Origin: Dictyobacter kobayashii
GTDB taxonomy: Bacteria > Chloroflexota > Ktedonobacteria > Ktedonobacterales > Ktedonobacteraceae
Assembly: GCF_003967555.1 (NCBI RefSeq)
Contig: NZ_BIFS01000001.1
Span: 744,001-808,000, forward strand
Reading direction: 5' to 3'
Length of the DNA: 64,000 bases
In this document: piece by piece, positions 25,564-61,110 of the stretch
Layout: every line of letters begins with the position of its first letter
Numbering within the stretch: the stretch's first letter is position 1
The notes under the pieces: generated by a model
What the model saw: only the letters and a program-made list of their open reading frames with translations
What the model was told of the DNA's origin: nothing
Databases searched by the model: none
Translations under genes and position numbers: made by a program

Positions 25564-27368
25564 CTACACGCGCCGGGATTCTTGCATATGGGCATTGCCC
25601 CATAACCCACCCAGCAAACCGAGGACCCAGGCCACAATCAGTCCAAGCAGCATCAAGAAGAGGAAGTTAACGAAAGGGGTCTGTTTAGCAAGCAGCATAG
25701 GGACAGCAGGCCAGTGCGGTTGCACGAAGCTCCAGGCCTGTGAAAATAGTTCCCGCGGATCATTCTGAGGATTATAAGTAATCAGAGTTTGATAGCGTTG
25801 TGTGGCACTGATTAATAAACCCAGTAAGATACCCACCCAGAAGACGATTGTGCTCCAGATACCTGCCCAATAACCGGCCCAGGCTCCACGAAGTGAGCCA
25901 CCACCACGGCGTGTGGTCATATAACCGGAGAGGACGTAGAATAAAAAGCCGAGCACAGTAGCCAGGTAGAAATCCGCCGATTCCTTCAATGCCAATACCA
26001 TAAACACTGCCATACATCCCTGGATTAATCCCCATAAGCAGCCCTGACTGGAAGGGGTTGGCAAAGGTCGATTCTGGGCAGCCTGGGCGCGGGCCCGCTT
26101 CTTCTGCTCAGCTGGCGACAGAGGAGGTGCGATTGGTGTTGGATTTGGATAAGGATAAGCAGGAGTTCCAGGCAAGGCCGGTCCCATATAGCCCTGGCCC
26201 GGAGGAAAGGGAGGTTGCCCAGGATAGCTCATCTGCTGTGGATTGCTGCCTGCGCCATAACCGTAAGATTGCTGTGGTGGAATAGGCGAATATGGTCCTC
26301 GATTATACGCCTGTGGAGCGAGCACCTGGTGGGGCGAGCTTACTGGTCCCGGCGGCATTGCGTTTGAAGATGTACTGGCAGCCACAGTCGGCTCATAAGG
26401 CGTGCCAGCATAGCTCTGTAACTGAGACGGAGGCTGAGAGGTCACAATGGGACCAGCAGGACCCATCTGGACCGCGACAGTCTGATCGTTATAGGCATCA
26501 AATGATGGCTCGCGCAAAATACGGGCCAGATCACCCATACTCTGGAAACGCTCATCAGCGTGCAGGGATAGCGCCTTCAGCAAAACCCATTCCACATTAG
26601 GTGAAATAGATGGATTGAGCAAACGAGGAGCAATCAACTCATCGCGCACACTTCGACTGGTAGCAACGGGAGGGAGGCGATTGGTCAATAAAATATACAT
26701 CGTCGCTCCCAGCGAATAGATATCTGACTGCGGAGAGGTCTTGCCTATATATTGCTCAAGCGGACTAAAACCCTCGGTCACTGCACGCCCTAATGTCTGT
26801 GTGCTCGCATCAGGATCATAAAGCTTGGTCAGGCCAAAATCCAGCAAGACAGCGGTATTATTAGGCGTCAAGACAATATTGCCTGGCTTAATATCGCGAT
26901 GCATTACTGGTGGGCGGCGACTATGCAACTCCTGCAGCGCATCCATCAGCGGCAATAGCCAGCTCAACACCTCTTGTTCACTGCATGGTCCGCTCGCTAA
27001 CTGACCAGGCTTCTGCTCACCAACACGGCCACCAGGCGCACGCGAACGTAGCAGCTGTAGCAAATTCTGCCCTCAATTAGCTGCATAATCAAATAAAAAC
27101 GCCCATTAGCCTCAAGCGCATCATATACCTCTGGAAGATGAGGACTCCTCACAGTAAACAGAACACTCGCCTCCATCAAAGCCTGGCGACGTGCCGCGGG
27201 CGTCACATCATATGTTTCCTTAATCGCGCAAGGACGATTCTTTTCGCTTGTATCGACCCCGCGATAAACCGCACCGAAGCCACCCTGATTAATCAGATTG
27301 CCAATAATATAGTGGCCCCGATAAGAGTTCCTGGTGTTAATGCGACTGGTAAGCTCATAGCCGAGCAA
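25564..27368 (-). CDS. PknB-type Ser/Thr protein kinase 1 with a four-helix membrane tail, frameshifted
   Basis: The N-terminal kinase lobe starts MLGYELTSR, with glycine loop NQGGFGAVYRG and the Lys of CAIKE. The C-lobe has MHRDIKPGN, LLDFGLTK and a GFSPLEQY activation region. A Pro/Gln/Tyr-rich linker of about 130 residues follows, then about four membrane segments at the C-terminus. The frame breaks at plus CCC 27070-27072. One more base gives LIEGQNLLQLLRSRAPGG and joins the two lobes into a ~601-residue protein. Having the kinase N-terminal and the membrane segments C-terminal is the usual PknB topology. The ligand is unknown. Its C-terminal membrane bundle is not a PASTA or beta-propeller sensor. 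Confidence 0.88.
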
Positions 27369-27639: not shown

Positions 27640-27858
27640 GCGTACGTGCGCTGGCTCACCCGAGCTTTTATTTGTGTGGTGCAAACAGTGCGCCGGGCGC
27701 ACTGTTTGCACCACACAAATAAAAGCTCGGGCGGGAAGATCCCAGTGATCATGAGAATTGGATACACTTTTAATAACCTGATGAGAAAAATGCGCCCCGG
27801 CGCATTTTTCTCATCAGGTTATTAAAAATTCAGATCGGGCGCGTCAGCGCACGTACGC
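27640..27858. repeat. Forked palindromic element 1 (outer stem plus two long perfect hairpins)
   Basis: Outer arms 27640-27653 and 27845-27858 are perfect complements (GCGTACGTGCGCTG). They continue inward imperfectly through CCCGA/TCGGG. Inside are two near-perfect palindromes: 27659-27731 (36-bp arms around a single base) and 27768-27827 (29-bp arms around two bases), separated by 36 nt. The inner hairpins are unrelated to each other. The folded shape is a stem with two branches. A second copy with the same outer motif is at 57.8 kb. Confidence 0.85.
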
Positions 27859-28142: not shown

Positions 28143-29066
28143 TTGGAACGAAATGTGATGTTTAACGCAGAACGCGACCGTGATAAGGCGGCTGAACCTG
28201 AACGCGAAAATGTAGCGGAAGCTGATCTCAGTAACCTGGCACAAAGCGATAGCTTACGCCTCTATCTTCGTGAGATTTCACGCATTCCTCTGCTCTCTGC
28301 AGCAAGCGAATCGCGCATTGCAGAGAGAGCCGAGCAAGGCGATAAGGATGCCCGAAACCATCTCATTGAAGCCAATTTGCGTCTGGTTGTCAGCATTGCC
28401 AAAAAATATGTTGGTCAGGGACTTTCCCTGGAAGATCTCATTGGTGAGGGCAACATCGGTCTCATCAGGGCTGTTACCAAATTTGACTATCGCAAAGGTT
28501 TTCGTTTCTCCACCTATGCAACGTGGTGGATTAAACAAGCCATTACACGTGCCATCCTTGAGGGCACGCGTGTTGTGAGACTCCCTGTGTATATTATGGA
28601 AGAAGTGATGCGTGTCAAACGTACCACACGCCAGCTATACCAGGAAATGGGGCGAGAGCCAACTCCTGAGAGTATCGGTGAACGACTCGGCATGACTGCA
28701 GAACGTGTGAGCGAATTGCTCATCTGGGCAGAAAAGGTCTTCTCACTCGACGCTCCTCTTTCAGAAGAAGAGGAAAATACGCTTGGCGATATTATAGAGG
28801 ATATGCACGAGCGAGGGCCAACCGAAATTACAGATCAACAATTATTGCGCGAAGAGATTCGCAAAGTTCTTGGACAACTTACAGTGCGTGAACGTCAGGT
28901 TATTGAACTGCGCTTCGGCCTCATCGATGACCATGACCATACATTAGAAGAAGTGGGCAAAAAGTTAAAAGTTACGCGTGAGCGTGTACGACAGATCGAA
29001 GAGCGTGCGATTCGTAAATTACGACATCCGCAGGCCAGTCGGATTTTGAAAGATTATCTCGATTAA
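28143..29066 (+). CDS. RNA polymerase sigma-70 family factor (RpoD/SigA-like)
   Basis: This 307-residue sigma factor lacks region 1.1. Region 1.2 is seen as [16 protein letters not shown], regions 2.1-2.4 as [14 protein letters not shown] to [16 protein letters not shown], region 3 as MREPTP-like helices, and region 4 as [15 protein letters not shown] with the [22 protein letters not shown]. The -10- and -35-recognition helices match group 1/2 sigmas, so it should read standard promoters. A TTG start at 28143 (AGGAG at 28124-28128) and an ATG at 28158 are both possible. It may be a primary or a stress-conditional paralogue; the window does not decide. Confidence 0.92.
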
Positions 29067-44522: not shown

Positions 44523-44666
44523 AAAAAGCCCTGAGATCGCGAGCAAGCGATACGATGGACCTTCTTTCAGGTGTGGAGTGTGCGTGGTGGGCGGTCGCGA
44601 CCGCCCACCACGCACACTCCACACCCGGCTCCGCAGGCGCCAAAGAGGAAAAATAAAAAGCCCTGT
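44523..44666 (+). repeat. Palindromic dispersed repeat, copy A (left border)
   Basis: The core is a perfect 56-nt palindrome, 44570-44625, with 28-bp arms and no loop. It is flanked by GATACGATGGACCTTCTTTC on the left and CCGCAGGCGCCAAAGA on the right. AAAAAGCCCTG occurs at both outer ends (44523-44533 and 44655-44665). A homologous copy in the opposite orientation is at 50183-50332. The left-flank and right-flank blocks align over about 35 and 38 nt with few differences. Confidence 0.85.
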
Positions 44667-50182: not shown

Positions 50183-50332
50183 CAGGGCTTTTTACTTTTC
50201 TTCTTTGGCGCCTGCGGCGCCGAGTTGGGACTGTGGAGTGTGGTGGGCGGCCGTAGCCGCCCACCACACTCCGGAAAGAATGTCCATCGTATCGTTTGCG
50301 CGTGATCTCTGGAAGAGCATGAAAAAGCCCTG
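50183..50332 (-). repeat. Palindromic dispersed repeat, copy B (right border), opposite orientation
   Basis: A 17-bp perfect hairpin (50235-50251 with 50256-50272, loop CGTA) forms the core. The ends are 11-nt perfect terminal inverted repeats, CAGGGCTTTTT at 50183-50193 and AAAAAGCCCTG at 50322-50332. On the minus strand it aligns with copy A through GATACGATGGAC-TTCTTTC and CCGCAGGCGCCAAAGA. The terminal inverted repeats and ~150-bp size resemble a miniature inverted-repeat element. Confidence 0.85.
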
Positions 50333-57500: not shown

Positions 57501-57807
57501 CGAGAGTAAACCTCCATTAATCGGAACATTTTGTTATTGTAGAAAACATTATTTGACAGGTCTAGAATGTGCATCAGAAGAGTGTTAGTGCTACTCTCCT
57601 GACAATTTCCATTGCGTGTAAGACATACATGTTCTGGAAATCTAATAGTAATTATCGGTAAGGCTGATCTATTAAATAGATCTATTAAATAGTGGTAGAG
57701 CGATTCTAAAAAGATCACACTTTTTTAGAATCGTCTGGAGCATGCCTCAAAGAGTGTGATTATTTCCTATGGTGCGGGGAATCGTGCTGCACCTTGTATA
57801 CGTGCGA

Positions 57808-57951
57808 TGTCGCGCCCGAACTGGTTTAAATGGTATGTTGTCGAAACGGGGCCGAGCCCCGTTTCGACAACATACCATTTAATTAATTGAGCACCGCAGA
57901 CGCAAAAGCCCGAACTGGTTTATTCGGTAATAAACCAGTTCGGGCGCGACA
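57808..57951. repeat. Forked palindromic element 2
   Basis: Outer arms 57808-57828 and 57931-57951 are perfect complements over 21 bp (core CGCGCCCGAACTGG). Inside are hairpin A, 57826-57852 with 57856-57882 (27 bp, 3-nt loop), and hairpin B, 57909-57924 with 57929-57944 (16 bp, 4-nt loop). The right arm of B is also part of the outer right arm, so the two pairings compete. The outer motif matches element 1 at 27.6 kb (CGTGCG, CCCGA, TCGGGCGCG-CAGCGC), but the inner hairpins do not. Confidence 0.82.
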
Positions 57952-58019
57952 GCGCGCGCCTGTATAACAACGACATGCTTTCCCATAAATATGGAAGTCT
58001 GACACGCTGAAAAGGGGAA

Positions 58020-60200: not shown

Positions 60201-61110
60201 GATCTTATCCGAAAACCTAATGATGAGAAGCATACTGAAAACAAATGAGTCCGCAAGCCAGCTGCAAGAACGCTTGATACGTTTGACCAAGCTTTTCCCA
60301 GCGGACCAGCAAGCGGCGCCACCGATTGAGCCAGGAGAAAAAGCGCTCGACCACCCATCGACGCGGCGTTTTTCCTGGTTCCAGGCTGTTGGCTTCTTCC
60401 TGGGGAGGCTGATACCACGTGTGGTACTTCCGGTTGAGCCGCACGTGTGGTTCATAGCCTCGTTCATAGAGCTCACCATAGATTGCCTCATGATCATACG
60501 CCGCATCCAAGCACAGGTTTTGAGGATGCTCCACGGTGGGTTCTGGTTGTTCAGCGACGAGAGCATCCAGGGTGGAGAAAAGCAGCTTGCTATCATGGCG
60601 GTTGGCCCCATCAATGCACAGCGCCAGGGGCAAGCCACGGCGATCACACAGAATGCTCCGTTTGGTTCCCTGTTTGCCGCGATCGGTGGGAGCGGGGCCG
60701 ACGGCGGCTCTGGCGAAAGGGGCTTTCACGGTCGAGCTGTCGGCGCTCTGCCAGTCCCAGCTGATGCCGACCAAGTCGTCATAGTGTTGCAGGCCAGCCT
60801 GCCACAAGCGCTCAAAGACGCCTTGGGCTTCCCACTCGCGGAAGCGGTCATAGACGGTGCTGGATGCTCCCAACTCACGAGGCAGGGCGTTCCATTGAAT
60901 GCCGGTTCGCAACACATAGACGATGGCGGCAAACATCTTGCGATCATCGGCTGCAGGCCTTCCGCCTTTGGGATGCGGCGGCCGTTCTGGGATCAGGGGG
61001 CGTACGCGTTCCCACAGTTCATCGCTGACTTCCCACGGTCGTGTTCGTACCATCGTTGTTCACCTCATCGTTTTTTGTCTGTATTGTATCACTGGTTTTC
61101 GGATAAGGTC
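60201..61110. mobile_element. Complete IS5-family insertion sequence
   Basis: A 910-bp element with imperfect terminal inverted repeats matching at 16 of 17 positions (GATCTTATCCGAAAACC at the left, complement of GGTTTTCGGATAAGGTC at the right). It is flanked by a TAA on both sides (60198-60200 and 61111-61113) that fits a 3-bp target duplication of the IS427/IS1031 type. It contains a single intact transposase gene. It lies between the GH13 and methyltransferase genes. Confidence 0.92.
60217..61053 (-). CDS. IS5-family DDE transposase
   Basis: A 278-residue transposase, complete and without frameshift. The IS5-type N-terminus is PHPKGGRPAADDRKMFAAIVYVLRTG. The DDE residues are D105 (SADSST), D183 (CLDAAYD) and E236 (RRWVVERFFSWLNRWRRLLV). 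It catalyses cut-and-paste or copy-type movement of the element. The start is ATG 61053 and the stop lies 16 bp inside the left terminus. Confidence 0.95.
   Translation of the reverse strand: MVRTRPWEVSDELWERVRPLIPERPPHPKGGRPAADDRKMFAAIVYVLRTGIQWNALPRELGASSTVYDRFREWEAQGVFERLWQAGLQHYDDLVGISWDWQSADSSTVKAPFARAAVGPAPTDRGKQGTKRSILCDRRGLPLALCIDGANRHDSKLLFSTLDALVAEQPEPTVEHPQNLCLDAAYDHEAIYGELYERGYEPHVRLNRKYHTWYQPPQEEANSLEPGKTPRRWVVERFFSWLNRWRRLLVRWEKLGQTYQAFLQLACGLICFQYASHH

Follow-up and report, generated by a model that had tools for sequence, protein, structure and literature searches.

A MITE-like repeat family with forked inverted copies and concerted hairpin arms in Dictyobacter kobayashii

Why does an intergenic DNA fork carry two long hairpins whose arms pair without a single mismatch, and how are such arms kept identical? 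We address this question for a locus of Dictyobacter kobayashii (assembly GCF_003967555.1, contig NZ_BIFS01000001.1). The window is the whole stretch of DNA analysed, 64,000 nucleotides long (positions 744,001 to 808,000 of the forward strand). The genome comprises 8.85 Mb in two contigs and is close to that of Dictyobacter vulcani (sigma factor 97% identical).

A forked locus and its dispersed family

The features of the window discussed first are the following.

25564..27368, minus strand: protein-kinase ORFs in two overlapping frames, diverging from the fork
27640..27858, no strand: forked element 1, a compact fork, read as a pair of inverted family units whose tails abut
27645..27663, plus strand: left outer motif, CGTGCGCTGRCGCGCCCGA, with 2 mismatches
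27659..27731, plus strand: hairpin 1, perfect 36-bp arms, loop of 1 nt
27732..27766, plus strand: decayed right end of a long-form unit between both hairpins (by alignment, 27 of 35 bases equal the unit right end)
27768..27827, minus strand: hairpin 2, belonging to the second, inverted unit, perfect 29-bp arms, loop of 2 nt
27835..27853, minus strand: right outer motif, inverted copy, exact
28143..29066, plus strand: RpoD-like sigma-70 factor, neighbour of the fork
57801..57958, no strand: second fork of the same family, outer arms 57801-57828/57931-57958

The initial annotation had described an outer 14-bp stem, imperfectly extended to about 27 bp, that holds two long palindromes between divergent genes, and each of these elements is present. 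The outer arms (27640-27666/27832-27858) span 27 nt at 85% complementarity with the first 14 bp perfect, and the arms of hairpin 1 (27659-27694/27696-27731, 36 nt) and hairpin 2 (27768-27796/27799-27827, 29 nt) are both 100% complementary. The fork lies between the minus-strand kinase ORF, which starts near 27368, and the plus-strand sigma-70 gene, which begins at 28143. Folded as single-stranded DNA, it reaches -103.9 kcal/mol, compared with -38.0 +/- 3.6 for shuffled sequences (z = -18.5). The palindrome of hairpin 1 runs into the outer motif (CCCGAGC/GCTCGGG), as do those of 17 of 134 copies in total. The second fork bears hairpins at 57826-57882 (27 bp) and 57908-57945 (17 bp). The two palindromes of the first fork, taken at the outset to be unrelated, are not wholly so, both belonging to a continuum of hairpins with a TGCGC-type tip. 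An intrinsic terminator was considered and rejected: in a unit read by eye, no T-run follows the 3′ arm on either strand.

The surroundings of the fork provide some additional observations. The protein kinase gene to its left is split over two frames near 26997-27063, and alignment with D. vulcani suggests the loss of one base, either as a frameshift or as a sequencing error. In D. vulcani, the element is absent upstream of the sigma factor gene, the spacer being too diverged to give the exact junction.

When used as a DNA query, the window fork matches dozens of places in its own genome. The genome-wide search for its outer motif, proposed with the initial annotation, turned out to be decisive: the half-motif CGTGCGCTGRCGCGCCCGA occurs at 255 sites with at most 2 mismatches, compared with 0 for the reversed control. 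The repeat is thus broader than initially stated, and it includes the second fork of the window. There is a strong case that the window fork is one copy of a dispersed MITE-like family, a small non-coding jumping element with roughly 200 copies in the genome of this soil bacterium; a regulatory element specific to the locus finds no support. In the loci that we fetched, outside which about 80 of the 255 motif sites lie, 174 half-sites were read with up to 4 mismatches, and 151 were used where no more than 3 were allowed. Once merged, about 86% of the elements fall outside crude ORFs (18 of 126 inside), whereas 70% of random points fall inside. Most sites are unpaired; about 22 inverted half-site pairs, 140-609 bp apart, were found among those examined. 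Any benefit of the family to host or element is only conceivable, and its function putative.

Long-form units, forks and the compact form

The long form of the unit measures ~203 bp and has inverted ends. It opens with a AGAATGTGTCTTAC-type end and a small TCCCAT/ATGGGA stem; the outer motif, then a T-run and the long hairpin come next, and a GAGCGCC/GGCGCTC stem precedes the inverted end. The 3-bp target duplications of this form are identical in 22 of 38 cases and equal in the central base in 31 of 38; TNA is their usual form, and the right ends read TNA in 33 of 38. The same ends occur on an insertion sequence (IS) of ~1.08 kb with five copies in the genome, located as follows.

C1:70288, C1:71368 and C1:2405657: partner IS copies flanked by terminal inverted repeat (TIR) pairs
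C2:1848967 and C2:1371916: further partner IS copies

One MITE end is identical to the IS end over 31/31 bp, and many others match over 30-38 bp. The partner transposase is encoded in two overlapping frames and belongs to the IS5 family; its N-terminal part matches NF033580 (transpos_IS5_3) with 117 bits against a cut-off of 110, and matches to PF13340 and PF01609/PF13586 are also found. TNA is the insertion site of IS1031-group elements, which produce 3-bp duplications there; a -1 frameshift is used by some of them (PMC12016507). The long form uses the ends of a resident IS5-family (IS1031-type) element, and we infer that it was probably spread in trans by the transposase of this element. The absence of an adjacent transposase, which the initial annotation had pointed out, holds; the enzyme is encoded elsewhere in the genome. 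The proposed analogy to transposon ends survives in the IS5-type ends and target duplications of the long form, while that to T-shaped viral or replication-origin ends is not supported. At C1:2405000-2406740 and C1:70200-72450, units and IS copies lie directly against one another as arrays in which a single TNA site separates neighbours, which suggests insertion at or beside existing ends. A different IS5-family transposase lies in the window at 60217-61053; it is one of seven equally scoring genome copies, and its subgroup differs from that of the partner IS.

Each fork has two half-sites, inverted relative to each other and bearing one hairpin apiece. Several forks (C1:665929, C1:1745723 and C1:2405095) retain, between the hairpins, the two unit right ends in direct contact, and forks are therefore best read as dimers of two inverted units joined tail to tail. 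The compact form accounts for 78 of the 151 half-sites, and its conservation begins sharply at TGCGKACG. Neither IS5-type ends nor a target duplication accompany this sharp end, at TGCGKACGTGCGC. Both sides of the window fork are of the compact form, and the internal decayed unit end is its only IS5-type trace; no TIR was found outside 27640 and 27858. Since it lacks IS ends, it represents a derivative or compact relative and not a complete MITE. A search for target duplications of forks gave none above chance. The IS5 route leaves the compact form, including the window copy, unaccounted for.

One could account for the compact form, and for the inverted half-sites, high copy number, intergenic position and lack of target duplication that go with it, by a REPIN-like process in which an inverted REP-like pair is moved by a Y1 (RAYT) transposase; compensatory changes have indeed been reported in REPIN spacers (PMC3116915). 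We consider this quite improbable: the genome has only two Y1_Tnp genes, the outer motif occurs at neither locus, the GTAG tag is absent, and half of the family carries IS5-type ends. The ORFs that follow the better Y1 gene resemble TnpB of IS200/IS605.

Concerted change of the hairpin arms

The long hairpin differs from copy to copy and yet matches itself. The 134 first hairpins contain 132 different arm sequences, while 3590 of their 3607 arm pairs are perfect and the 17 mismatches include 4 G-T pairs. Mismatches amount to 0.5% within the arms of one copy and to 42% when the arms of different copies are paired. Arms keep a length near 25-30 bp, and a TGCGC-type tip with a short loop is found again and again, whereas the remainder drifts. 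Across 28 aligned units, the 13 loop-distal pairs have undergone 21 double changes and 0 single ones, and none of them is broken. For the remaining helices of these units, the counts are 11 double and 52 single changes (Fisher p = 4e-12 compared with the distal arm). These helices serve as an internal control and set the long hairpin apart from the rest of the unit. The mismatches concentrate near the loop (33 of 780 versus 6 of 2694 farther out, with a hairpin finder that cuts off mismatches where they lie at the far end of an arm).

Individual copies display further rearrangements. Between the close copies L029 and L032 there is one patch of difference, ACTTCTTGAGCGCC in one corresponding to AAAAGCTCGGGCGCC in the other, in which the 3′ flank of L029 has come to be the reverse complement of that copy's 5′ flank. 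In two individual copies, L029 and L010, GCGCC is shared at the putative return point, which may indicate a junction at microhomology. Extra tandem arms repeat the 3′ arm in 16 copies and the 5′ arm in 1, with a hairpin finder that under-detects 5′ duplications; C1:178667 probably carries 5′ arm copies that it missed. Extra 3′ arms occur on either chromosome strand, with up to about eight repeats at C1:2481922, and the polarity of arm duplication tracks the element and not the chromosome strand.

Similar hairpins occur beyond this family. The outer motif itself has 0-3 matches in same-genus genomes, near the control level, because the relatives have other outer motifs; these genomes hold full-length relatives with 67-73% identity, whose hairpins are mostly perfect and differently spelled. 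A second, unrelated high-copy family, TCTTTCNNGTGTGGAGTGTGTG, has 169 sites in the D. kobayashii genome and 0-4 in relatives; its hairpins are variable, almost perfect and precede a GGCGCC-GCA-GGCGCC stem. Copies of this family are located as follows.

44570-44625 of the window: TCTTTCNNGTGTGGAGTGTGTG family copy
50235-50272 of the window: TCTTTCNNGTGTGGAGTGTGTG family copy
L312:1161: TCTTTCNNGTGTGGAGTGTGTG family copy outside the window

In the D. kobayashii genome, hairpins with arms of at least 16 are also frequent outside the first family, with 62 in about 690 kb of retrieved DNA, a few of them being unlisted members of that family; in loci from other bacteria they are rare (3 in 270 kb), the sampling being non-random.

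That each copy has its own near-perfect and differently spelled hairpin suggests that the two sides have repeatedly been copied from each other. Perfect arms had been recognised at the outset as demanding an active explanation; we agree, and copying akin to gene conversion fits best. We infer that the arms are probably kept identical by intrastrand template switching and not by selection on an RNA. As synthesis passes through the unit, the nascent DNA strand would fold back at the loop-proximal stem, template the 3′ arm on its own 5′ arm and then resume the real template. Mutations of one arm would thereby be passed to the other, so that copies drift while their arms stay perfectly complementary. 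Such fold-back copying could in some cases carry the palindrome on into the adjoining motif, and in others produce additional 3′ arms in tandem. In E. coli, template switching on the nascent strand perfects quasipalindromes (PMC7202029), and for mitochondria it has been put forward to explain palindrome arms that evolve in concert (PMC6649704). The mechanism predicts paired changes without intermediates, no wobble preference, residual mismatches on the loop side and patches. The first three are found across copies, and patches in single examples; mismatches would cluster near the loop, as they do, if copying is primed by the loop-proximal stem. What counts against the mechanism is that the polarity of arm duplication tracks the element, which simple slippage during replication would not lead one to expect.

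This polarity, together with the recurrence of arm length and tip and of the same architecture in other genomes of the genus, is also consistent with selection at the DNA level, in which a transposase or nuclease would recognise the extruded hairpin or cruciform and mismatched copies would fail to move. Such selection remains a partial rival to template switching and could produce part of the arm pattern, but as the explanation of the arms it appears rather unlikely. It would have to purge every single mutation over ~25 pairs, even in old copies that no longer move, and yet mismatches are tolerated near the loop and 17 palindromes continue into a neighbouring motif that recognition does not need. 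We also entertain, as a speculative and on balance doubtful reading, that the genus possesses an element-directed re-synthesis of arms, triggered by the outer motif or the extruded hairpin. The palindromes would then be actively rewritten and renewed as part of the replication or movement of the repeat. If true, this would account both for the polarity of 3′-arm duplication and for two unrelated high-copy families behaving alike in one genome.

Selection at the RNA level, in which the element is transcribed and its hairpin kept as a stable RNA stem, for example as an RNase III site or mRNA stabiliser, might be suspected from the stable fold, the many base-paired double changes and the intergenic position described above, and other bacterial MITEs do act as RNA (PMC2229807). 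It is nevertheless improbable here. RNA stems tolerate G-U pairs, and these are common in the other helices of the unit, yet amount to only 4 of 3607 in the long hairpin; it is because wobble pairs are missing from this hairpin alone that the RNA reading fits poorly. Single-side changes, moreover, are absent from the distal arm, and a search of the window against Rfam gave no family at the curated gathering thresholds. The matches obtained at low thresholds, to eukaryotic miRNA precursor models, were rejected as triggered by any perfect hairpin.

Fold-back during assembly or sequencing can create perfect palindromes, but such an artefact is very unlikely indeed, given that 134 hairpins, perfect or nearly so and independently spelled, occur in this genome together with shared flanks, target duplications and context, and that the assemblies of three others of the genus contain similar ones.

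Relation to known systems

The family resembles MITEs of the IS5 family (IS1031 subgroup), which are likewise ~200-bp, non-coding, intergenic elements with many copies, 3-bp TNA duplications and ends in common with a resident IS5-family element. It differs from them by its copy-specific perfect hairpin, its forks of inverted units and its compact form without IS5-type ends. A search of the open-access literature found no bacterial MITE with copy-specific perfect hairpins. With REPINs, it shares the hundreds of small, inverted, intergenic elements and the variable spacers with compensatory changes (PMC3116915); unlike them, it shows no RAYT link or GTAG tag, and its hairpins, one per half-site, contain hardly any mismatches or wobble pairs. 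The CIR elements of Caulobacter also consist of two long stem arms and a linker (PMC2229807), but they show GANTC in the loop, and the window fork, as read from its sequence, has none.

Parallels to the arms come from mitochondria. The coding palindromes of Nematomorpha are abundant perfect inverted repeats with concerted arms, for which template switching has been proposed (PMC6649704), and double-hairpin or repetitive hairpin-forming elements are mobile hairpin repeats (PMC2800124). These belong to organelle genomes and do not form a bacterial, IS-linked family with IS5-type ends. The present family bears on RNA discovery based on covariation: a stem with double base changes does not have to function as RNA, and the scarcity of G-T pairs together with missing single-change intermediates offers a simple means of telling the two apart. 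Quasipalindrome correction in E. coli, yeast and phage T4 similarly perfects imperfect inverted repeats via the nascent strand (PMC7202029). It is described there as single mutation events, whereas here its signature recurs in more than 100 copies scattered through the genome, along with a polar tandem duplication of arms. These natural copies of one hairpin, each with its own arm sequence and almost no mismatches, would already constitute an unusually clear bacterial record of how one arm is copied into the other, and make the rate, direction and enzymes of palindrome rewriting testable.
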